In this document: positions 1-56,928 of the stretch, in pieces
Layout: each line of letters begins with the position of its first letter
How positions within the stretch are numbered: position 1 is the stretch's first letter
Assembly (NCBI GenBank): GCA_020723305.1
Contig: DYJC01000001.1
Coordinates: 186,001 to 250,000 of the forward strand
Direction of reading: 5' to 3'
From: Desulfosudis oleivorans
GTDB lineage: Bacteria; Desulfobacterota; Desulfobacteria; Desulfobacterales; SURF-7
DNA: 64,000 nt
Program-made: the position numbers and the translations under genes
The notes under the pieces: generated by a model
Seen by the model: only the letters and a program-made list of their open reading frames with translations
The model's database searches: none
Told to the model about the DNA's origin: nothing

Positions 1-119
1 TCATAGTTCAACTCTTCGTCCGGTGATACCGCACGGGTTGAAACCGTACATCCGGCAGCCAGTCCGAGTACACACATCAAAAGAATCATAACAGACAATT
101 TTTGCATACATTTTTGCAT
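1..119 (-). CDS. Lipoprotein, N-terminal part only (runs off window start)
   Basis: Reading leftward from an ATG at 119 gives about 39 codons that stay open to the window edge. The N-terminus is a lipoprotein signal: basic/polar start, a hydrophobic stretch (VMILLMCVLGL) and the lipobox LAAGC at about residues 20-24, followed by TVSTRA. An AGAGG ribosome binding site lies about 9 bases upstream; a second in-frame ATG is at codon 5. The protein should be exported, lipidated on Cys24 and held in the inner or outer membrane. Too little is present to name a family. Confidence 0.7.
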   Translation of the reverse strand, partial: MQKCMQKLSVMILLMCVLGLAAGCTVSTRAVSPDEELNY

Positions 120-24998: not shown

Positions 24999-25787
24999 AT
25001 GATGGAGAGCGTTCATACAGCAATCGCACTTGGTTCGCGGCTTCGAAATTGTCGCAATGTAATCACATTGGGTATTCAGTCCAATTTTTCAAAGTATAGT
25101 GAACCGGAAAAAGAGCTGATCCGGAAAGCATCGAAAATTTATTACCCCGGAACTTTTTATGCCGACCTTTTCAATACAATTGAAAAACCAACATTTCCAA
25201 GCTACCATACCTACAAGTTTGTACAGGATAAAATCAAACAGACCGCTCTTTTTCAACTTCTCAACATTCCCCACCCCAAAACAAGAATTTTTTATGGAAA
25301 GAAGCAAAAAACAAATATCCTCGATTATTTCAAATATCCGTTTATAGCAAAAATTCCAAGAGGTTCGGCTATGGGAAGGGGCGTCTTCCTCATTCAGAAT
25401 CAGGATGATTTTTCAGAATACTGCAACCTAACGAAAATCGCCTATGTTCAGGAATTTCTTCCAACAGATCGGGATATACGTGTTGTCGTTATTGGTGACC
25501 GCGTTGCCCATGCCTACTGGAGAATTGCAGCACCCGGTGAGTTCCGGAGCAACATTGCCAAAGGAGCGGAGATCAAACTAGATGACGTTCCGGAAGATGC
25601 GGTCAGGCTGGCATTGTTTGCCGCAAGACAATGCGGATGGGATGATGTGGGTATGGATATTCTCATTCATAAAAAAAACTATTACATACTGGAAGCAAAT
25701 ATGAAATATGGCAAAGCCGGTTTTCAAAAAGCAGGAATTGACTATATTGGACTGATGGAAAAAAAAATTGCAGCCGGTGAAATCTGA
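24999..25787 (+). CDS. RimK-like ATP-grasp ligase
   Basis: 262 residues. ATP-grasp elements: TFPSYHTYKFVQDKIKQTALFQLLNIPHPKT, the Lys and glycine-rich loop in PFIAKIPRGSAMGRGVFLI, VQEFLPTDRDIRVVVIGDRV, and the metal-binding end DVGMDILIHKKNYYILEANMKYG. This follows RimK/glutathione-synthetase-like enzymes that join an amino acid to a carboxylate using ATP. Substrate not predictable. The exact start is uncertain: ATG 24999 or 25002 is used, without a strong ribosome binding site. The gene follows the DUF4292 lipoprotein by 52 bases, and a MITE copy lies 7 bases after its stop. Confidence 0.85.
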   Translation: MMESVHTAIALGSRLRNCRNVITLGIQSNFSKYSEPEKELIRKASKIYYPGTFYADLFNTIEKPTFPSYHTYKFVQDKIKQTALFQLLNIPHPKTRIFYGKKQKTNILDYFKYPFIAKIPRGSAMGRGVFLIQNQDDFSEYCNLTKIAYVQEFLPTDRDIRVVVIGDRVAHAYWRIAAPGEFRSNIAKGAEIKLDDVPEDAVRLALFAARQCGWDDVGMDILIHKKNYYILEANMKYGKAGFQKAGIDYIGLMEKKIAAGEI

Positions 25788-25794
25788 GACCTGT

Positions 25795-25914
25795 GAGCCA
25801 ATTTCAAAACTATTATAAAGCGTCACACCGGCGAAAGTCAGTGCCCAGAAAAGAGCCAAAATACTGGATTTTGTTTTCGCCGGAACTACAACAACAGACT
25901 TTTGAAATTGGCTC
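25795..25914 (+). mobile_element. 120-bp MITE, copy 1
   Basis: Begins GAGCCAATTTCAAAA and ends TTTTGAAATTGGCTC, perfect 15-bp terminal inverted repeats. An inner pair (CCGGCGAAA / TTTTCGCCGG) makes a second stem. Flanks are CTGT and CTAT, a 3-of-4 match to a short target duplication. It lies between the ATP-grasp gene and the dNTPase gene. Other copies are at 33144, 51211 and 55358. Confidence 0.92.
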
Positions 25915-32354: not shown

Positions 32355-33167
32355 ATGAAATATAATACAATCCTTTTTCAAATTGAAAACAACATCTCCA
32401 TCATCACATTCAACCGCCCCAAAGCCTTGAATGCACTGAACTCGGAACTTTTGTCCGAATTCTCAGCAGCCCTGGATGAAATCCAGAAAAACCAGGAAAT
32501 ACGGGTACTGATTTTAACCGGCGCAGGAGATAAATCATTTGTCGCAGGTGCGGACATAACCGAACTTGCCTGCTGCCTTTCTTCAATTCAGGCCAGACAT
32601 TTCGCGTCATTGGGTCATCTGGTCATGAATAAGCTTCAGGAGCTGCCCATACCGGTAATTGCGGCAGTAAACGGATTCGCCCTTGGGGGAGGAAGCGAGG
32701 TTGCCCTGGCCTGTGATTTTATTTATGCATCTGAAAATGCAAAGTTTGGTCTGCCGGAAATCACACTGGGTATTATCCCCGGATTCGGCGGAACCCAGCG
32801 GCTCGCGCGGCAGATTGGAAAAAATATGGCCAAAGAGATGATTTTTACCGGAAAAATGATTAGTGCTTCCGAAGCGCATCAGATCGGGATGGTGAATAAA
32901 ATCCTGCCTCCTGCGTCTCTCATGGAAGAGGTTATCAAAACAGCCGGCATGATTGCATCCAAAGGGAGAGTCAGTCTGAGAGCTGCCAAACAGGCAGTAA
33001 ACAGCGGAATGGATGTTGATCTTGCTACAGGCTGTAAATTGGAAATCGACGCATTCTCCATCTGCATGGCTGGAGAAGACGCACGGGAAGGGACAACGGC
33101 TTTTCTTGAAAAAAGAAAACCGGAATTTAAAGGCCAACTGAATGAGCCAATTTCAAAACGATTATAA
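32355..33167 (+). CDS. Enoyl-CoA hydratase (crotonase family), C-terminus supplied by a MITE
   Basis: 270 residues. Crotonase motifs: FNRPKALNALN, the oxyanion-hole block AGADITEL, LGGGSEVALACDF with the first catalytic Glu, and LPEITLGIIPGFGGTQRLAR with the second. It hydrates a trans-2-enoyl-CoA in beta-oxidation or a related route. GGAGG precedes the ATG. The normal family end is at FKGQ; the last seven residues EPISKRL and the stop lie inside MITE copy 2. Removing the element and one TGAAT gives an original end of QLNK-stop. The C-terminal helix is otherwise intact, so activity is probably kept. Confidence 0.95.
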   Translation: MKYNTILFQIENNISIITFNRPKALNALNSELLSEFSAALDEIQKNQEIRVLILTGAGDKSFVAGADITELACCLSSIQARHFASLGHLVMNKLQELPIPVIAAVNGFALGGGSEVALACDFIYASENAKFGLPEITLGIIPGFGGTQRLARQIGKNMAKEMIFTGKMISASEAHQIGMVNKILPPASLMEEVIKTAGMIASKGRVSLRAAKQAVNSGMDVDLATGCKLEIDAFSICMAGEDAREGTTAFLEKRKPEFKGQLNEPISKRL

Positions 33168-33265
33168 AGCGTCACACCGGCGAAAGTCAGTGCTCAGAAA
33201 AGAGCCGAAAATACTGGATTTTCGTTTTCGCCGGAACTACAACAAGAGACTTTTGAAATTGGCTC
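33144..33265 (+). mobile_element. 122-bp MITE, copy 2 (inside the end of the enoyl-CoA hydratase gene)
   Basis: Same ends as the other copies (GAGCCAATTTCAAAA ... TTTTGAAATTGGCTC). It is flanked by a perfect 5-bp direct repeat TGAAT (33139-33143 and 33266-33270), the mark of transposition. Its first 24 bases are translated as EPISKRL-stop by the host gene. Confidence 0.95.
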
Positions 33266-48956: not shown

Positions 48957-49517
48957 ATGATCCAAAATAAATATAATAACTCTGGAAAACTGCTGATTAT
49001 CCTCCTTTTGATCATTACGATTGCTGTTGCAGCAGGCGGTTTTTTTGCCTATACATTCTTATATGCAAAAAAGACTTCGGACACTGAAATGGTTAATATC
49101 CACCTCCGGGAGGAAACCATTGCCTTTGTCCATCAGTCCATGCCCGATGTTTACAACTCTCTTTTCGAACTCAACCAGGAAATTGTCGTGATTGAGAAGG
49201 AATTGAAGCGTCTTGAAGTCATCGAAAATGAATATCCGAAACAGAAAAAAATTGTCCAGGATGAGATAAAAATGTGGATCAAGACCCGGAAAGATCTACA
49301 GACCATGATTGAAAATCTGGAAAAAAACATCGAACCCCTGTTTGTCGCCTATACGGTGAATATGGAAAAAGGAACGGAACTGCTGGCATCGAAAAAGGAA
49401 GAGCTTCTGGCTTCGGTAACCGAAGCCCTGGAAGCATCCAAAAAACAGACTGCCCGGCTAAAAGATAACGAAGATAAAAGTTTTATCCAAAAAATAAAAG
49501 AAAAAATTTCAAAGTGA
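48957..49517 (+). CDS. Membrane-anchored coiled-coil protein within the ole operon
   Basis: 186 residues. One transmembrane helix near the N-terminus (LLIILLLIITIAVAAGGFFAYTFLYA), then about 140 residues of long amphipathic helices with heptad-like spacing (EIVVIEKELKRLEVIENEYPKQ ... LASKKEELLASVTEALEASKKQ). No catalytic motif. It is packed between oleB (2 bases upstream) and oleC (GTG start overlapping its TGA), so it is almost certainly co-translated with them. OleBCD form a large complex in characterised bacteria, so this protein may anchor that complex to the membrane; that is inference. Confidence 0.8.
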   Translation: MIQNKYNNSGKLLIILLLIITIAVAAGGFFAYTFLYAKKTSDTEMVNIHLREETIAFVHQSMPDVYNSLFELNQEIVVIEKELKRLEVIENEYPKQKKIVQDEIKMWIKTRKDLQTMIENLEKNIEPLFVAYTVNMEKGTELLASKKEELLASVTEALEASKKQTARLKDNEDKSFIQKIKEKISK

Positions 49518-51172
49518 CCTTATCAAACAAAACGATTGTCAATGTCTCCATGGGCGTGACAGAGACAGCAAAAAAAGACCCGTATAAAAAAGCGGTTGTA
49601 TATCCTGAATCCAGGAATCAGAATGGACGTCTGGCTTATTCCCATTTCACTTTTCGTCAACTGGATCAGGAATCGGACTGCATGGCTGCCGGACTTGAAA
49701 ACGCTGGAGTAGTCCGCAACACCAAAACCATCCTCATGATGAAGCCATGTCTGGATTTTTTCTCACTTGCCTTTGCCCTCCTGAAGATCGGCGCGATTCC
49801 GGTTCTGGTTGATCCCGGCATGGGGATTACTCCTCTGCTTCGCTGCGTAAAGCAAATAAAGCCCGAAGCATTTATCGGGGTTCCCTGGACCCGGCTCCTC
49901 AAACTGTTCCGCCCGGATCTTTTTAATAGTGTAAAAACCTTTATCACGACTGGCCGGTGTTTGTTCTGGGGCGGGATGACCCTGGAAGATATTCGAAAAG
50001 TTCCATGGATCACACCGGTCATTGCCGATACACAGGCTGACGATACTGCCGCGATCCTGTTTACTCCCGGGAACACCGAACCAGCCAAGGCGGTTATCTA
50101 TACCCATGGCAATCTGATCGCCCAATTCAGGCAAATCAAAGACCAATTTGATATCTCATCAGATGAAATCGATCTCTCAACACTCTCTTCATTTGCTCTT
50201 TTGGGTCCGGCTCTTGGAATAACTACGGTCATTCCGGATATCGACACTGCGCGCCCGGCACTTGCGAACCCACAGAGCATCATTGAGACAATCTTTGACC
50301 AGGGAGTGACCAACATGATCGCCTCCCCTGCCCTGTTAGACCTGGTGGGGCGATATGGGCAAAACAACCGGATGATGCTTCCTTCCCTGAAAAGAGTGAT
50401 TTCCGTAGGAGCGTCGTTTCCGCCTTCACAAGTTGAACGATTTGCAAAAATGTTATCCGGAACCGCTGAAGTGCACACATCCTATGGTTCTACAGAAGCC
50501 ATGCCGATCCTGTCCATTGGCAGCAACGAAATCCTGTCCGAGACAAAGGGTCTGAGTGAAAAAGGATATGGAAACTGTATTGGCCGGCCCATCAAAGATA
50601 TCGATGTCCGCCTGATTCAGATAACCGATTCCCCTGTATCCATTTTTTCCGATGATCTGCTGCTCCCACATGGCGAGATTGGTGAATTTATTGTCAAGGG
50701 CGATCTTGTATCCGGAAATTATCTTGAAAACAGTGAACATGACATCCAGCAAAAAATAAAGGAAAACAGTGAAACATGGCACCGGATGGGAGACCTTGGA
50801 TGGATGGACAAGAGCAATCGTTACTGGTTCTGCGGCAGAAAAAGCCATCGGGTCATGACTGAACACGGAACATATTATTCGATTCCCTGTGAAGCGATTT
50901 TCAATACCCATCCGGATGTTTATCGAAGCGCACTCGTCGGTATTGGTACGGAAGAAAACCAAACACCGGTAATCTGCATCGAACTGGAAGAGAGCCGCAA
51001 TCTTGAACAGAATCGTATTGAAATGGAGCTTCTGGCTCTGGCGGAAAAAAATGTAATTACCCAGAACATCAAAACCATCCTGTTTCACAAGGTGTTCCCA
51101 GTGGATGATCTGCATCATACAAAAATCATCCGGGAAGAGCTGGCTGTCTGGGCGGAAGAGCAACTGGAGTAA
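49514..51172 (+). CDS. oleC: OleC-type AMP-dependent synthetase (beta-lactone synthetase)
   Basis: 552 residues, adenylate-forming enzyme: AILFTPGNTEPAKAVIYTHGN (ATP loop), VHTSYGSTEAMPI, and MGDLGWMDKSNRYWFCGRKSHRV with the hinge. OleC turns the beta-hydroxy acid from OleD into a beta-lactone. The ATP loop is unusual: family members read TSGSTGPAKG, here TPGNTEPAKA, with a Pro, an Asn and a Glu replacing small residues; the Lys is kept. The start GTG at 49514 overlaps the previous stop (GTGA). MITE copy 3 lies 38 bases after its stop. Confidence 0.85.
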   Translation: MTLSNKTIVNVSMGVTETAKKDPYKKAVVYPESRNQNGRLAYSHFTFRQLDQESDCMAAGLENAGVVRNTKTILMMKPCLDFFSLAFALLKIGAIPVLVDPGMGITPLLRCVKQIKPEAFIGVPWTRLLKLFRPDLFNSVKTFITTGRCLFWGGMTLEDIRKVPWITPVIADTQADDTAAILFTPGNTEPAKAVIYTHGNLIAQFRQIKDQFDISSDEIDLSTLSSFALLGPALGITTVIPDIDTARPALANPQSIIETIFDQGVTNMIASPALLDLVGRYGQNNRMMLPSLKRVISVGASFPPSQVERFAKMLSGTAEVHTSYGSTEAMPILSIGSNEILSETKGLSEKGYGNCIGRPIKDIDVRLIQITDSPVSIFSDDLLLPHGEIGEFIVKGDLVSGNYLENSEHDIQQKIKENSETWHRMGDLGWMDKSNRYWFCGRKSHRVMTEHGTYYSIPCEAIFNTHPDVYRSALVGIGTEENQTPVICIELEESRNLEQNRIEMELLALAEKNVITQNIKTILFHKVFPVDDLHHTKIIREELAVWAEEQLE

Positions 51173-51210
51173 TTGTTTTGTAAAAAACTCAATAATCAGT
51201 TTAAGATCAG

Positions 51211-51332
51211 GAGCCAATTTTAAAACCATTATAAAGCGTAACACCGGCGAAAGTCAGTGCTCAGAAAAGAGCCGAAAATACTGGATTTTAGTTTTCGCCG
51301 GAACTACAACAAGAGACTTTTGAAATTGGCTC
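51211..51332 (+). mobile_element. 122-bp MITE, copy 3 (between oleC and oleD)
   Basis: Starts GAGCCAATTTTAAAA (one change from the others) and ends TTTTGAAATTGGCTC. It is flanked by TCAG at 51207-51210 and 51333-51336. The right TCAG leads straight into GGAGAAAAA-ATG of oleD, so insertion happened at the oleD ribosome binding site and left an AGGAG intact. Confidence 0.95.
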
Positions 51333-51344
51333 TCAGGAGAAAAA

Positions 51345-52361
51345 ATGATCAACTCCGAGAAAAAAAAAGCGCTGGTAACCGGCGGAGGTGGTTTTCTGGG
51401 CAAGGCCATTATCCGGAAACTGGTTGAACAAGGTCAACCGGTATGGAATTTTTCCCGACATTCCTACCCGGATCTTGAGGCATTGGGTGTTCAACAGATT
51501 CAGGGGGATCTTTCCGATAAAAACGCAGTTGAAAAAGCATTATCCGGAATGGATATTGTTTATCATGTTGCCGCAAAACCAGGCGTATGGGGAACTTATG
51601 ATGAATATTTCAAACCCAATGTTATAGGTACTCGTAACGTGATCCATGCCTGTAAAAAGAATAATATCCAAAATTTGATCTATACCAGTTCACCCAGTGT
51701 GATCTTCACCGGTGAAGATATGGAGGGTGTGGATGAATCCATTCCCTATCCGGAAAAAACCCACACACACTACACCCAAACAAAAACCATTGCGGAAAAA
51801 GAGGTGCGCGAAGCGGCAAAACAGGGGTTGAATATCATCATCCTTCGCCCGCACCTGATATGGGGGCCAGGTGATCCCCATCTTGTCCCGCGGGTTATCC
51901 AGCGTTCCCGGAAACTCGTCCGGGTAGGAAGCCGGAACAGTTTGGTGGACACCATCTATATTGACAATGCTGCCGATGCCCATATTCTGGCAGCAAAAAA
52001 GCTCGAAGAAAACCCGTCGCTTTCCGGTAAAATCTATTTTATCAGTCAGGATGACCCGATCCCCATTTGGGATATGATCAACGGCATCCTGAATGCCGCC
52101 TGCCTGCCCCCGATAACCAGAACACTCCCGCTCAAGGTTGTCTGGACTGTCGGAGCGATTCTTGAGTTTGTATACACTGTTTTCCGGATTCCAGGAGAAC
52201 CGAAAATGACCCGGTTCGTTGCCAATGAGCTGGGGACATCCCATTGGTTTGATATCAGCGCTGCCAAGAAAGACCTGGGATATTCACCCCGAATTTCCAC
52301 CGAGGAAGGATTCAAGCGCCTGAAAGAATGGCTGGTTCAGAACCCGATATTGGTGGAATAA
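51345..52361 (+). CDS. oleD: OleD-type NAD(P)-dependent epimerase/dehydrogenase (beta-ketoacid reductase)
   Basis: 338 residues, extended SDR. Nucleotide loop ALVTGGGGFLGKAIIRKL, YHVAAKPGVWGTYDEYFKPNVIGTRNVI, active site Ser (YTSSPSV) and Y-T-Q-T-K (HYTQTKTIAEK). The pattern PGVWG and RPHLIWGPGDPHLVPR fits the OleD/3-beta-hydroxysteroid-dehydrogenase-like group. OleD reduces the long beta-keto acid made by OleA. AGGAG lies 6 bases before the ATG, just beyond MITE copy 3. OleA itself is not in the neighbourhood. Confidence 0.87.
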   Translation: MINSEKKKALVTGGGGFLGKAIIRKLVEQGQPVWNFSRHSYPDLEALGVQQIQGDLSDKNAVEKALSGMDIVYHVAAKPGVWGTYDEYFKPNVIGTRNVIHACKKNNIQNLIYTSSPSVIFTGEDMEGVDESIPYPEKTHTHYTQTKTIAEKEVREAAKQGLNIIILRPHLIWGPGDPHLVPRVIQRSRKLVRVGSRNSLVDTIYIDNAADAHILAAKKLEENPSLSGKIYFISQDDPIPIWDMINGILNAACLPPITRTLPLKVVWTVGAILEFVYTVFRIPGEPKMTRFVANELGTSHWFDISAAKKDLGYSPRISTEEGFKRLKEWLVQNPILVE

Positions 52362-52492
52362 TTTGGTTAGAATTCTTTAATGATACATGATATCGATTTT
52401 TTCATGACGACATCATTAAAAATCAAGTCTTTTTCAAATACCCAAATCATATTCCAATTCCCGGCCTTACCAGTACCTGGATTTCGATCCTC

Positions 52493-52521
52493 TTGACACA
52501 ACATCTTATCTCAAATATACA
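52493..52521 (+). promoter_or_regulatory. Sigma-70 promoter for the MopE-motif lipoprotein
   Basis: TTGACA (52493-52498), a 17-base spacer and TATACA (52516-52521), about 40 bases ahead of the ATG. Near consensus. Confidence 0.75.
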
Positions 52522-52561
52522 AAATATATTAAAAACAGGTCTTTTCAAAAGGAGGTGTACT

Positions 52562-54361
52562 ATGCAAAAAAAAGTCAAGCATTTTTGGAACAATGCAGCG
52601 ATCCGGGAATTATTGATTTATCATATTATCTTCTTTTTTATTATCACTCCTTTTTTATCAAGCTGCAGCAGTTCCAGTAATAGCACGGACAGCAGCAATA
52701 TTCCATCAAGCACAGATACTACTGTAACAGATGCCGTGGACAGTCAGAACAGATCAGCCGAATCCGCGATATCCGGTGCTGCGGAAGTGGAAACCGACCT
52801 AAAATCCGGCAGGGCGTTGATTGAAGATGCATTTGGAACAGTATCCCCGAATCAGGAAGCGATCGAGGATTATGTTTACGCACATCCGGAGGACGCTGCC
52901 ACTCTTATTGCTAAACTCACGGAACTGGCCAATGATATTCAATCGGCTGCAAGCACATTCAGCGCTTCCATAAAAGAATTAAAGGATCAGGAAAATATCA
53001 TTTCCGATTCACTGGAATCCGGCAATGATGAAACATCGGTCGTCATCCGGGATTCTCAATCCATCGGCCTGGTAGGCGGCGCCCTTGTTCTGCTGTCCGT
53101 CTTCGGAGCCGTTGCTGCCGCAGGAAAAGGAGCTGCCGATGCCATTCATGAATGTGATGGTTTGCCGGAATGCAATCCAATGCCGGCTGCAACAGATGCG
53201 AGATTTGCCGAATGCATGAAATGGAGAGCGGAAAAGCTTGCCTGTATTATCCAAAAGTGGCCCAAGGCTGCCGGGGAAGCAATCAAGGCAACAATTTCCA
53301 ATGGTGTTACCGACATATCCAGTTGGGCCGCCGGTGTCAAGGAATGGAAAACCATAAAATTTCTGATTGAGGCTTACGACACCTATGACGATGTCGATTC
53401 CATCAAAAAAGCTTTCGGTATCAGGCGCTGCGATGATACGGATGGTTACTTGAAAACGGATAATCCGGATTTTCGGCAGATTCAGGCCATCAATCCAAAT
53501 GATCTGACTCCGGACGATATTTACATTGGCACAAGCCAGAACGGATCGTTCCACAATGTCCCGAAAGGGGACTGGACCTTCCTGCTTATGGAAGACGGCC
53601 ATCTGCGGAAGACCACCATTTGTGTGGATGCCAACGGAAATAGTCCGATTCAATCCCTTGTAAAGCTTGTTCCGGTTCGGGCGTTGACAGATGACGACAA
53701 GGACGGGTTTTCGGAAGTTCAGGGAGACTGTAATGATCAGAATGCAGCCATTCACCCCAATGCTGCTGAAGTCTGCACAGATGGTGTTGATAACAACTGT
53801 AACATGCTCATTGATTGTTATGACAGTTCGTGTGATGCCCATGAATCCTGTCAGGATAATACTCCAGCCGACGTAACCCTGAGTGCAAATGTAAATATTC
53901 CCGGTTATGGTGGATTTTCTCCCAATTTCAAAGCGATTGCACTTGGCGAGTGCGATGACAGCACCAATAAATATATGGTTCCGGTCGTTTACGGCAGTAC
54001 CGGCGGGGATACCCTGAATATTTTAACCAGTGATGTTCTTACCCTGCATCTTAATAACGACATGGGAACAGGCACCTGGAATCTGGGTTTTGGTCCATGC
54101 GATACGCCAATTCTCTTCTTTTCCAGCAAAAATATTATTGATAAACGAGATGGAACACCTGTTGTATTCGGATCGGAATCCGGATCCGTTACCATACAAA
54201 CCTATGGCACCCAGTATGGGGAACGATTAACAGGCAGTTTTGACATGGATGTAATGGGATCTCAGTGTCTGGACGCTGCATGCGAAAATGAAACCGAAAT
54301 CACAGGAACAATCACAGGAACATTTGATGGTGTGATTACCCAATATACGCCGGGAAACTGA
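52562..54361 (+). CDS. Large lipoprotein with MopE-type metal-binding motif
   Basis: 599 residues from ATG 52562, which has AAAGGAGG 7 bases upstream. Signal (YHIIFFFIITPFLSSC) with lipobox LSSC, then a Ser/Asp-rich segment and helical regions. Near residues 377-420 is the 'putative metal-binding motif' first seen in MopE: DDDKDGFSEVQGDC ... NAAIHPNAAEVC ... DGVDNNCNMLIDC, an Asp-rich loop closed by Cys pairs. The last 150 residues look like a beta-rich domain (GYGGFSPNFKAIALGEC). It is probably a surface-exposed calcium- or metal-binding lipoprotein; its role is not known. It has its own promoter. Confidence 0.85.
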   Translation: MQKKVKHFWNNAAIRELLIYHIIFFFIITPFLSSCSSSSNSTDSSNIPSSTDTTVTDAVDSQNRSAESAISGAAEVETDLKSGRALIEDAFGTVSPNQEAIEDYVYAHPEDAATLIAKLTELANDIQSAASTFSASIKELKDQENIISDSLESGNDETSVVIRDSQSIGLVGGALVLLSVFGAVAAAGKGAADAIHECDGLPECNPMPAATDARFAECMKWRAEKLACIIQKWPKAAGEAIKATISNGVTDISSWAAGVKEWKTIKFLIEAYDTYDDVDSIKKAFGIRRCDDTDGYLKTDNPDFRQIQAINPNDLTPDDIYIGTSQNGSFHNVPKGDWTFLLMEDGHLRKTTICVDANGNSPIQSLVKLVPVRALTDDDKDGFSEVQGDCNDQNAAIHPNAAEVCTDGVDNNCNMLIDCYDSSCDAHESCQDNTPADVTLSANVNIPGYGGFSPNFKAIALGECDDSTNKYMVPVVYGSTGGDTLNILTSDVLTLHLNNDMGTGTWNLGFGPCDTPILFFSSKNIIDKRDGTPVVFGSESGSVTIQTYGTQYGERLTGSFDMDVMGSQCLDAACENETEITGTITGTFDGVITQYTPGN

Positions 54362-54383
54362 TCAAGGCGCTTGTAGGGTAATG

Positions 54384-54415
54384 GACAGACAATCCCTTTA
54401 CCGGGATTGCCTGTC
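54384..54415 (+). terminator. Hairpin after the MopE-motif lipoprotein gene
   Basis: GACAG-a-CAATCCC and GGGATTG-c-CTGTC form a 12-bp stem with one internal mismatch and a 6-base loop, 23 bases after the stop codon. There is no T run (TCACAAAAA follows), so it may be a weak terminator or mRNA end. Confidence 0.45.
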
Positions 54416-54451
54416 TCACAAAAAAACAAGGCATAAGGACTGCTCATTAGG

Positions 54452-55402
54452 ATGTTTACAGATAAACAACCGTTTACCTGCCCGCATGACCACGATTTCC
54501 TGCCCGATTCCCATCATGCCAATGAACGCCGCACCTGGTTCGTGATCATCCTCACCTTCACGACCATGGTTGTGGAGATCATTTCCGGAATTCTGTTCGG
54601 CTCCATGGCCCTTCTGGCTGACGGTTGGCACATGGCCAGTCACGCCTCAGCCATGGGTATCACGGCCATGGCCTATTATTTTATAAAAAAACATAAAAGC
54701 AATTCCAACTTTTCATTCGGAACCGGCAAGATAGGCGACCTTGCCGGTTACAGCAGCGCACTTCTTCTTGCCTTTATTGCATTATTTATGGCGTATGAAT
54801 CCATCCATCGTCTGTTTGAACCCCGCTCCATTCGCTTTAACGAGGCTTTGATCGTTGCGGTTATCGGACTGGCGGTCAATGTGATCTGCGCATTTATACT
54901 CAAAGAAGATTCGGAGCATCACCACCATGAACACGACCATGACCACAATCTTCGTGCAGCCTATCTCCATGTGCTGGCCGATGCCTTGACATCGATTCTG
55001 GCTATTGTCGCACTCTTTTTCGGAAAGACTCTCGGATGGACATTTCTGGATCCGGTTATGGGTATTGCAGGAGCGCTGATGATCAGCCGCTGGTCCGTCG
55101 GCTTGCTGAAAGAAACCGGCAAGGCACTGCTCGACCACAACAGTGACAACCGCATGCTGCAGGATATCCGGGAGACCGTCGAATCCATCGGGGGAGCAGC
55201 TTCGGTGGAAGATCTGCACCTCTGGCGACTAGGCCAGGGACATTACAGTGCAATTATTTCAATTAGATCTCATACGGAGGCAGTTCCGGAAGACTATAAA
55301 ACAGCTTTATGCCGATTTCACTGGTTGTCACATGTGACCGTTGAAATCAATAAAACAGAGCCAATTTCAACAGTCTCTTGTTGTAGTTCCGGCGAAAACT
55401 AA
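54452..55402 (+). CDS. dmeF: CDF-family metal exporter (DmeF-like), C-terminus supplied by a MITE
   Basis: 316 residues, six transmembrane helices. The N-terminus CPHDHDFLPDSHHANERRTWFVI and the motifs MALLADGWHMASHASAMG (His/Asp metal site) and AYLHVLADALTSILAIVAL (second site) match the DmeF branch, exporters of Co/Ni and related divalent ions. The His loop EHHHHEHDHDH lies between helices 4 and 5. From residue 303 on, the protein (EPISTVSCCSSGEN) is encoded by MITE copy 4. Removing the element and one AACA gives an original end of NKTK-stop. The new tail adds two adjacent cysteines. Confidence 0.92.
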   Translation: MFTDKQPFTCPHDHDFLPDSHHANERRTWFVIILTFTTMVVEIISGILFGSMALLADGWHMASHASAMGITAMAYYFIKKHKSNSNFSFGTGKIGDLAGYSSALLLAFIALFMAYESIHRLFEPRSIRFNEALIVAVIGLAVNVICAFILKEDSEHHHHEHDHDHNLRAAYLHVLADALTSILAIVALFFGKTLGWTFLDPVMGIAGALMISRWSVGLLKETGKALLDHNSDNRMLQDIRETVESIGGAASVEDLHLWRLGQGHYSAIISIRSHTEAVPEDYKTALCRFHWLSHVTVEINKTEPISTVSCCSSGEN

Positions 55403-55479
55403 AATCCAGTATTTTCGGCTCTTTTCTGAGCACTGACTTTCGCCGGTGTGACGCTTTATAATCGTTTTGAAATCGGCTC
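55358..55479 (-). mobile_element. 122-bp MITE, copy 4 (inside the end of dmeF, inverted)
   Basis: Opposite orientation to the other three. Ends are GAGCCAATTTCAA and TTTTGAAATCGGCTC (one change). It is flanked by AACA at 55354-55357 and 55480-55483. Its first 45 bases are read as the last 14 residues of the exporter plus the stop. Confidence 0.95.
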
Positions 55480-55605
55480 AACAAAATAACGATACAGGTT
55501 GAATAATCCTTACTGTTTCTGTATAGTGATATAGCTACTTAAGCCAATCACCTGATCACATTACAGTTGCCTGATCGTCTTCCGGATGGAAAAGGAGCGG
55601 AATTG

Positions 55606-56928
55606 ATGAAAGAAGCGTTCAAAATCAATCCCTTTGAAAGGGATTCCATGGTCCTGATCGGAATCAGTCTATCCGTGGCGTTCTGGTTTATTGAATCGTT
55701 CATGCATATCTTTCTGTCCCCTGGTTTCAGTTTTTCCGAAAATCTTTTCGGTGCCAACCTGTATGATATTTATTCCCGTGTCATTGTTTTATGTCTTTTT
55801 CTCATATTTGGATCTCATGTTCAATATACGATCAACAACCGGAGAAAAGCCGAAAGCGCTTTGCGTGAAAGCGAAGAAAAATACCGATCCATTCTGGAAA
55901 GCATTGAGGAAGGATATTATGAGGTTGACCTGAATGGAAATATCACCTTTTTTAACGATTCATTCCGCAGGATATTGGGTCTTTCCAGTAGTGAACTGTT
56001 GGGCCGAAATCAAAAAGAGTTTCTTAGTGAAGAAAATTTGAAAAAAATTATTATAGAAGCCAAAAAGGTTTTTAAAACCGGAAGGCCCAATTCACTTTTT
56101 GAAGTGGAGTATGTAAACAAAAATGGTTCAAATCGAATTATCGAAGCTTCCATTGCCCTTTTCACAGACTCAAAAAGTAACCCGGCAGGTTTCAGGGGGA
56201 TTGCACGCGATGTCACGGAAAAGAGAATCATGGAAAGAAAATTGATTGAAGCGGATAAAAAACTTCAGGCAGCCCGTGGCGCGACAATACTAGGACTTGC
56301 GAAACTGGCTGAATACCGGGATATGGATACGGGTCTGCATCTGGAACGGATGAGGGAATACAGTAAAATCCTAGCAGAAGCCTTGTCTGATCTGCCGGAC
56401 TACAAAGATTACATAACCAATGAATATATTGATGATGTTTTCAACTCTTCCATTTTACATGATATCGGCAAGGTAGGCATACCGGATTCCATTCTGCTGA
56501 AGCCGACCACCCTCACTCCTGAAGAATTTGAAATCATGAAGAGCCATGCCAGGCTGGGCGGAGAGGCCATCGAACTGATTGAGCTGGAAACCAAGGGGCA
56601 GTCTTTTCTAACTATTGGAAGGGAAATTGCCTATTATCATCATGAAAAATGGGATGGAAGCGGGTATCCGGAAGGCCTCAAGGGAGAAGCCATCCCCTTA
56701 TCTGCAAGGCTCATCGCCCTGGCGGATGTTTATGATGCACTGACATCCAAAAGAGTTTATAAGGAATCCTATTCCCATGAAAAAGTAAAAGAAATGATTT
56801 TAAAAGCCAGAGGCAAACATTTTGCACCGGAAGTAGTGGATGCATTTCTGGCACAAGAGGAAAAATTCAAATCTATCCGCCTCAATATGCAGGATTCAGA
56901 TCATGCCTGCGTGATGCATGACTACTAG
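55606..56928 (+). CDS. PAS and HD-GYP domain protein (probable c-di-GMP phosphodiesterase)
   Basis: 440 residues from ATG 55606 (AAAGGAG 8 bases upstream; an earlier TTG is less likely). Two N-terminal transmembrane helices (VLIGISLSVAFWFIESFMHIF and VIVLCLFLIFGSHVQY), a PAS domain (residues about 90-210: EEKYRSILESIEEGYYEVDLNGNITFFNDSF), then the HD-GYP domain: HDIGKVGIPDSILLKP, SHARLGGEAI, HHEKWDGSGYPEGLKGEAIPLSARLIALADVYDALTS. All metal ligands and the GYP motif are present, so c-di-GMP hydrolysis is likely. It ends 3 bases from the convergent MBL relic. Confidence 0.92.
   Translation: MKEAFKINPFERDSMVLIGISLSVAFWFIESFMHIFLSPGFSFSENLFGANLYDIYSRVIVLCLFLIFGSHVQYTINNRRKAESALRESEEKYRSILESIEEGYYEVDLNGNITFFNDSFRRILGLSSSELLGRNQKEFLSEENLKKIIIEAKKVFKTGRPNSLFEVEYVNKNGSNRIIEASIALFTDSKSNPAGFRGIARDVTEKRIMERKLIEADKKLQAARGATILGLAKLAEYRDMDTGLHLERMREYSKILAEALSDLPDYKDYITNEYIDDVFNSSILHDIGKVGIPDSILLKPTTLTPEEFEIMKSHARLGGEAIELIELETKGQSFLTIGREIAYYHHEKWDGSGYPEGLKGEAIPLSARLIALADVYDALTSKRVYKESYSHEKVKEMILKARGKHFAPEVVDAFLAQEEKFKSIRLNMQDSDHACVMHDY

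Follow-up and report, generated by a model that had tools for sequence, protein, structure and literature searches.

The window, meaning the whole analysed stretch of 64,000 nucleotides of Desulfosudis oleivorans DNA, contains a dmeF-family CDF exporter gene at 54452..55402 on the plus strand. Its product was identified as DmeF by the NCBIfam equivalog NF033827 (409.8 bits, cut-off 250). The gene encodes 316 amino acids with an element-encoded C-terminus, compared with 303 by excision. MITE copy 4 is located at 55358..55479 on the plus strand, is 122 bp long and has the ends GAGCCAATTTCAA and TTGAAATCGGCTC. It is flanked by a target duplication, an exact 4-bp repeat AACA at 55354..55357 on the left and at 55480..55483 on the right. 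The old gene end AAA TAA (55484-55489) directly follows the right AACA. Codons 55358-55402 of copy 4 encode EPISTVSCCSSGEN and the stop TAA. These are residues 303-316, the last 14 of the open reading frame, which ends in EINKT-EPISTVSCCSSGEN and the stop. Excision of copy 4 and one AACA from the window sequence gives an end of NKTK. A single sense codon separates the insertion from the old stop (k = -6, where k is measured from the end of the stop codon to the position at which the left repeat ends).

According to the initial annotation, the end of dmeF had been rewritten by a MITE that inserted independently. The inverted ends, the AACA duplication and the position of the last 14 codons within the element bear this out, and 55358-55479 was confirmed as a genuine dispersed MITE copy with inverted ends. 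Copy 4 differs from the family consensus at two positions. An Rfam scan of positions 51000-56000 gave no match at gathering thresholds. NKTK had been put forward as the original end; it is recovered by excision but is not conserved, as one close orthologue has 21 other residues after VEINK. This orthologue is found in Desulfobacterium sp. SW.3.97, a congeneric MAG (locus L202, 91% protein identity), in which the gene order is the same through the next gene and the element is absent. A homologue lacking the element and sharing the tail had been named as the case that would speak against a rewritten end. The L202 DmeF continues after VEINK with KKSQRKNSDIVKMMISKSDTG and a stop, so the tail is not found in this element-free homologue. 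At the insertion spot the loci differ by a 44-bp indel (the shared words are 60 bp apart in one and 16 bp in the other), and L202 therefore cannot serve as a clean empty site. With its different 21-residue end and 44 bp more than the empty site of the window, L202:6880-6960 points to repeated changes at this gene end.

MITE copy 2 (33144..33265, minus strand) has a 5-bp target repeat, TGAAT, and ends the upstream open reading frame with EPISKRL and a stop. The affected gene (32355..33167, plus strand) belongs to the enoyl-CoA hydratase/isomerase family and encodes 270 amino acids including the element-encoded C-terminus, or 264 by excision. Copy 2 was also inserted at k = -6 and in the same reading frame as copy 4, and its target repeat differs from AACA, so it is an independent insertion event. 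Two insertions of opposite orientation in the same frame near stop codons, as first noted from the window, are thus present. Copy 1 (25795..25914, minus strand, 120 bp) is just downstream of a gene ending at 25787 and has an imperfect target repeat. Copy 3 (51211..51332, minus strand) is in the gap between the same-strand genes 49514-51172 and 51345-52361. Downstream of dmeF is a gene with PAS and HD domains (55606..56928, plus strand). An outward sigma-70-like site within copy 4 (55433..55462, plus strand), comprised of CTGACT, 18 nt and TATAAT, is directed toward this gene.

The element family and the search for its transposase

The stretches of the draft genome that were examined cover half of it (2,712,524 of 5,404,902 bp). 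A profile search of this half gave 127 matches, of which 115 full copies were kept and 12 partial copies were dropped. By extrapolation from the 115 full copies the whole genome holds roughly 230. Of 245 candidate matches in the genome 40 were scored, and all of these were 93-100% identical. Perfect 11-bp ends on both sides were present at 66 places compared to 0 for a reversed-pattern control, so the element pattern is not due to chance. An alignment of 30 copies had conserved ends, unrelated flanks and short direct repeats. Exact direct repeats of 4 bp were found at 78 of the 115 copies and of 5 bp at six (84 in total), with neither at 31. Full copies ranged in size from 112 to 168 bp, with 79 at 112-123 bp, 30 at 141-144 bp and six at 165-168 bp. 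The element therefore has the features of a MITE: terminal inverted repeats, target-site duplication, short size with high copy number, and too little sequence for a transposase gene.

Any match to the family was found in nine of the 59 genomes searched, the own genome included. At least 14 matches were present in each of G002 (best identity 98%) and G003 (best identity 96%), while G001, from the same genus, had one match of 72% identity. G002 is of this genus too and, judging by coordinates, is probably the genome to which locus L202 belongs. Among the 14 own copies listed at least six were identical to the family consensus. Judged from these matches the family is mainly genus-level and recently active. 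The inverted ends and 4-bp duplications suggest that it would move by DDE-type cut-and-paste transposition.

Three DDE families in Pfam were searched in the own genome. DDE_Tnp_1 gave one match, in a 3456-bp locus where the MITE end motif was absent even with 3 mismatches allowed, and DDE_5 (PF13546) and DDE_Tnp_1_4 (PF13701) gave no match. Outside the elements the end motif (up to 2 mismatches) occurred 40 times in the half genome. Inward end pairs less than 6 kb apart were formed only twice there, at lengths of 54 and 142 bp. No autonomous partner with the ends of the family was found among the three DDE families in the own genome or the end pairs in the half genome. Seven Y1_Tnp (IS200/RAYT-like) matches were present in the own genome, one of them with an internal stop. 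Y1_Tnp transposases are not expected to leave target duplications. A genome rich in this MITE thus holds only one DDE_Tnp_1 match compared to seven for Y1_Tnp.

Some unusual relatives were seen among the copies. The 142-bp repeat at L074:9097-9238 has near-identical ends (GAGCCACTTTCAAAACG) and an unrelated interior, and a lone end of this kind lies near L082:3412; this repeat may represent another MITE family mobilised by the same enzyme. At L112:14466-14519 a 54-bp deletion derivative has kept little beyond both ends. The copy at L074:18539-18660 is in frame inside an MCP signalling domain gene. Its first in-frame stop is mutated. The 122 bp of the element and the 4 bp of the repeat make 126 bp, which is divisible by 3, so 42 residues are added and the original end then resumes.

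Distribution of copies around stop codons

Each copy was excised together with one repeat, and a simple home-made caller based on codon usage was then applied to the emptied sequence (2249 genes). The 115 insertions were classed as 58 between same-strand genes, 32 in genes, 18 in divergent gaps, six in convergent gaps and one at an edge. Clustering near stop codons with a frame bias, as suggested in the initial annotation, was strong in this tabulation of the half-genome copies: 43 of the 115 insertions were within -8..+17 of the stop end, a zone which makes up 2.1% of the sequence. A lack of bias toward gene 3' ends, which the initial annotation had given as a refuting outcome, was thus not observed among these copies. 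The density per kb was 0.72 at -10..-5, 0.92 at -5..0, 1.25 at 0..5, 0.86 at 5..10 and 0.65 at 10..15, with 0.04-0.54 in the bins past +15. The zone from -30 to -10 contained one insertion of the 115, and seven were deep inside genes, over 100 bp ahead of the stop.

The position one codon before the stop (k = -6) was occupied by eight of the 115 copies, four per orientation; two of the eight lacked an exact repeat. One copy was at k = -12 and every other k in -15..-3 was empty, so that all nine insertions in this range were in frame 0 (115 copies; the frame test is post hoc). The consensus in frame 0 encodes EPISKVSCCSSGEN or EPISKRL before a stop. Among the other four combinations of frame and orientation, the tail length is 26 to more than 40 residues in three and 9 residues in one. 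Four copies were at k = -2 and one at k = -1. When the element lands inside the stop codon its terminal GAG rebuilds the stop (T+GA, TA+G), and protein length was unchanged in all five of these.

A held-out set from other contigs comprised 18 loci, one of them without a match; the 17 matches minus 2 duplicates left 15 copies. Five of the 15 were within -8..+17 and none was at k = -6. A left-oriented copy was at k = -8 in frame 1, for which the predicted tail is the 9-residue one, and another copy was at k = -24 in frame 0. These loci are short, so some genes may be missed there. When the sets were pooled, nine of the ten insertions at k -15..-3 were in frame 0 (P 0.003 against a target-weighted share of 0.43, post hoc).

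The symmetrised target was rich in A and T, and its 4-bp repeat was immediately preceded by C and followed by G (C-NNNN-G). The flanking C/G had a frequency of 48% in 78 sites and 50% in the 51 sites far from stops, compared to a background of 18-19%. Three bases further out from the target C/G, G was nearly absent. A target model was built as a regularised matrix of 16 positions, with a training set restricted to insertions over 25 bp away from any stop; it replaced an overfitted 28-position matrix. The 28 near-stop sites outside training had a median score at the 94.5th percentile of their own ±100 bp. Across k -30..-1 the mean weight was highest at k = -6 (2.33), followed by k = -2 (1.93), while weights at k -12..-7 were 0.61-0.92. 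The weight was also raised at k = -5 (1.29) and k = -4 (1.38), yet no insertions were found there, and frame rather than target is therefore the reason. Frames 1 and 2 contained no insertions at -15..-3 (weight 16928), and the zone -30..-16 contained none in any frame (weight 25264). Insertions per 1000 weight were 1.53 at k = -6 (8 insertions), 0.74 at k = -2 and -1 (5), 0.79 at 0..4 (8), 0.84 at 5..12 (17) and 0.36 at 13..20 (7). Other frame-0 sites in -15..-3 had 0.14 (1 insertion). The idea that stop triplets themselves attract the transposase was tested at far sites and rejected: such triplets were at the key offset on 12 of 100 sides, where about 4 are expected from plain intergenic sequence and 17 from target composition.

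A weak AT-rich palindromic target combined with selection against disruptive frames probably explains most of the pattern. The transposase would favour a loose, AT-rich palindrome, C-NNNN-G flanked by A/T. A gene end, with its stop codon at the right spacing, would by accident fit this target in a single register, which places the insertion one codon ahead of the stop; the fit would be better still when the last codon starts with G. Purifying selection would then remove insertions which truncate proteins or extend them badly. The survivors would be those in which the last codon is replaced and 7 or 14 residues are added before an element-supplied stop, those inside the stop codon where the terminal GAG rebuilds it, and those beyond the stop. 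Copies apparently cluster at stop codons because the surroundings of stops resemble the preferred target and other landings in genes are weeded out. Target choice or selection had been offered as alternatives for the two insertions in the window; both seem to act, with the target being a weak AT-rich palindrome and not the stop codon as such.

Recognition of gene 3' ends themselves by the transposition complex, through termination, transcript ends or the terminating ribosome and with selection playing a minor part, is quite unlikely. The sharp peak at k = -6, the 1.53 insertions per 1000 weight there and the high density from +1 to +12 would agree with such targeting. The 57 insertions in same-strand gaps do lean toward the stop (21, 10, 11, 8 and 7 in successive fifths; KS p 0.01), but once a 25-bp strip next to the start is left out the 48 remaining sites are uniform from the stop onward (KS p 0.68). 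The model, built from the sequence of far sites, peaks at the same registers within genes, and at those far sites stop triplets are no more frequent than composition predicts. The absence of frames 1 and 2 at k -15..-3 among the 115 copies, with one frame 1 insertion in the held-out set, would be invisible to a targeting mechanism. After target and selection are taken into account, a modest excess remains at k = -6 (1.53 per 1000 weight, compared to 0.36-0.84 for gap positions beyond the stop). Deeper frame-0 sites are also fewer than would be expected if insertions were simply tolerated there, and a small additional preference linked to the stop may therefore contribute.

Consequences of the insertion at dmeF

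The new tail adds CC to the end of a Co/Ni exporter, at a C-terminal end which we take to be cytosolic as in the DmeF/CDF family. It had been suggested that this Cys pair has a metal-related role. An adaptive tail, with the pair giving the cytosolic end a metal site for which the insertion was kept, is highly improbable. Two of the other three left-oriented insertions at k = -6 give similar Cys tails to unrelated proteins, RCCHSGEGRNPEK at the end of a 512-residue hexapeptide-repeat protein and ACCCSSGESRTRMKA at the end of a methyltransferase-domain protein, and the third gives ELI. The four k = -6 tails of opposite orientation contain no Cys (EPISKRL in three, EPISKLF in one). The DmeF tail of the congener is unrelated, and copy 4, only two positions off the consensus, is too young to show selection. 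The suggested metal role was not upheld by these comparisons. The new dmeF tail would be a by-product of insertion one codon before the stop and is presumably neutral.

Among possible effects of the insertion, a regulatory one appears from the sequence to be a better candidate than the metal tail. The outward TATAAT promoter could drive the PAS/HD gene, or a hairpin at the mRNA end could alter translation or stability of dmeF; a regulatory change of this kind is possible but doubtful. The CTGACT-18-TATAAT site of copy 4, which points at the next gene, has 10 of 12 matches to the sigma-70 consensus, as a consensus match only. Between same-strand genes, eight TATAAT-bearing copies, in which the motif is near the right end, pointed downstream and 27 did not (8/35, p 0.0019), an avoidance that would fit a promoter which tends to do harm. 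Copies without TATAAT between same-strand genes had no such avoidance (19 compared to 22; 19/41). The contrast between the two classes was marginal (Fisher p 0.054), and the three held-out copies between same-strand genes were one anti and two co. Copy 4 belongs to the minority orientation among the TATAAT copies, in an orientation test that was post hoc. The RNA of copy 4 folds better than shuffled sequences on both strands (z -3.05 and -4.25), which would suit a hairpin effect. An effect of REPs near stops is known from E. coli, where REPs at most 15 nt from the stop are reported to stall ribosomes (PMC12306157).

Palindromic core and relation to known repeats

A minority of copies contain a REP-like core of two outward-tagged palindromes, each with CGTC or TGTC, an 8-bp stem and a 4-base loop, mostly followed by CCA. 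Stems with at least 7 of 8 pairs were present on both sides in 21 of the 115 copies, on the right only in eight and on neither side in 86. A pattern count allowing 2 mismatches, looser than the stem-pair count, gave both palindromes in 23, the right only in 74 and neither in 18. The right palindrome had CGTC in 96 of 115 copies, and the left had TGTC in 30 and TGTA in 75. CCA followed the left palindrome in 81 copies and the right in 52, with TCA on the right in 47 (of 115 each). Copies of the copy 4 type, with a mutated left palindrome, belong to the group without intact stems on either side. Outside full elements the half genome had few close matches, 8 and 11 for the two palindromes at up to 4 mismatches, which in part coincide and are in some cases within partial copies. 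Palindromes in the half genome are therefore mostly inside the element.

The repeats compared below are likened according to extracts of the cited papers. The layout in 21 of the 115 copies is that of CGTC-1 REP HH dimers of the dRS3 type as described in PMC3733652; the likeness is to that description. According to the same source the CGTC dimers of H. neapolitanus lie within a longer palindrome, and CGTC repeats apparently have no dedicated transposase. Unlike the CGTC-1 REP HH dimers as described, the dimer here is within defined inverted ends with 4-bp duplications, and most copies are without stems. The family could be a vehicle of CGTC-type REPs that arose from an outward-tagged dimer between the ends of a DDE transposon, its GAG termini and early stops having been shaped for harmless landing at stop codons with gene ends as the niche. 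This origin is unlikely, and the loss of stems in most copies speaks against a need for them.

The Coxiella elements QMITE1 and QMITE2 (PMC5896051) are likewise short, have inverted ends and many copies, and overlap gene 3' ends by 1-50 bp. EnhC of one Coxiella strain presumably has 33 C-terminal residues from QMITE2 (PMC5896051). They belong to another host and are likened by description, and in that comparison the target model and frame statistics are particular to the present family. The enterobacterial RU/ERIC repeats (PMC2759123) include a 127-bp class likewise fused in frame to ORFs; in one amidase the stop was lost and the C-terminus became longer. In those fusions the addition is mostly the ORF of the repeat itself, whereas the usual tail here is a stub of 7 or 14 residues. 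The Chunjie MITE of Geobacter uraniireducens (PMC10969869) also has conserved inverted ends, direct repeats and intergenic copies, one of them in an operon; its size is described as 178-235 bp, a longer range than here. Rickettsia palindromic elements are palindromic repeats which likewise encode in-frame peptides in unrelated proteins, and RPE-4 and RPE-6 are CGTC repeats (PMC10969869, PMC3733652). The Rickettsia elements are often inside proteins, whereas deep insertions in genes are few in the present family.

C-termini encoded by MITEs or REPs are thus already established (PMC5896051, PMC2759123, PMC10969869). No frame-resolved study of such insertions near stop codons was found in the portions of the open-licence literature consulted. 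As far as seen in that literature, the new points are the family itself, the distribution at codon resolution and the separation of target from selection within it, the ends that rebuild stop codons, and a CGTC dimer enclosed by ends that have target duplications. Earlier precedents for bacterial MITEs at gene ends, as given in these sources, are lists of single cases, while here one genome begins to separate target from selection. At codon-level resolution the insertions reveal a simple route by which unrelated proteins may receive the same short C-terminal tag. CGTC-type REP dimers, which are said to be without a transposase, are here tied to an element that has inverted ends and duplicates its target, and the spread of such REPs becomes a testable question.
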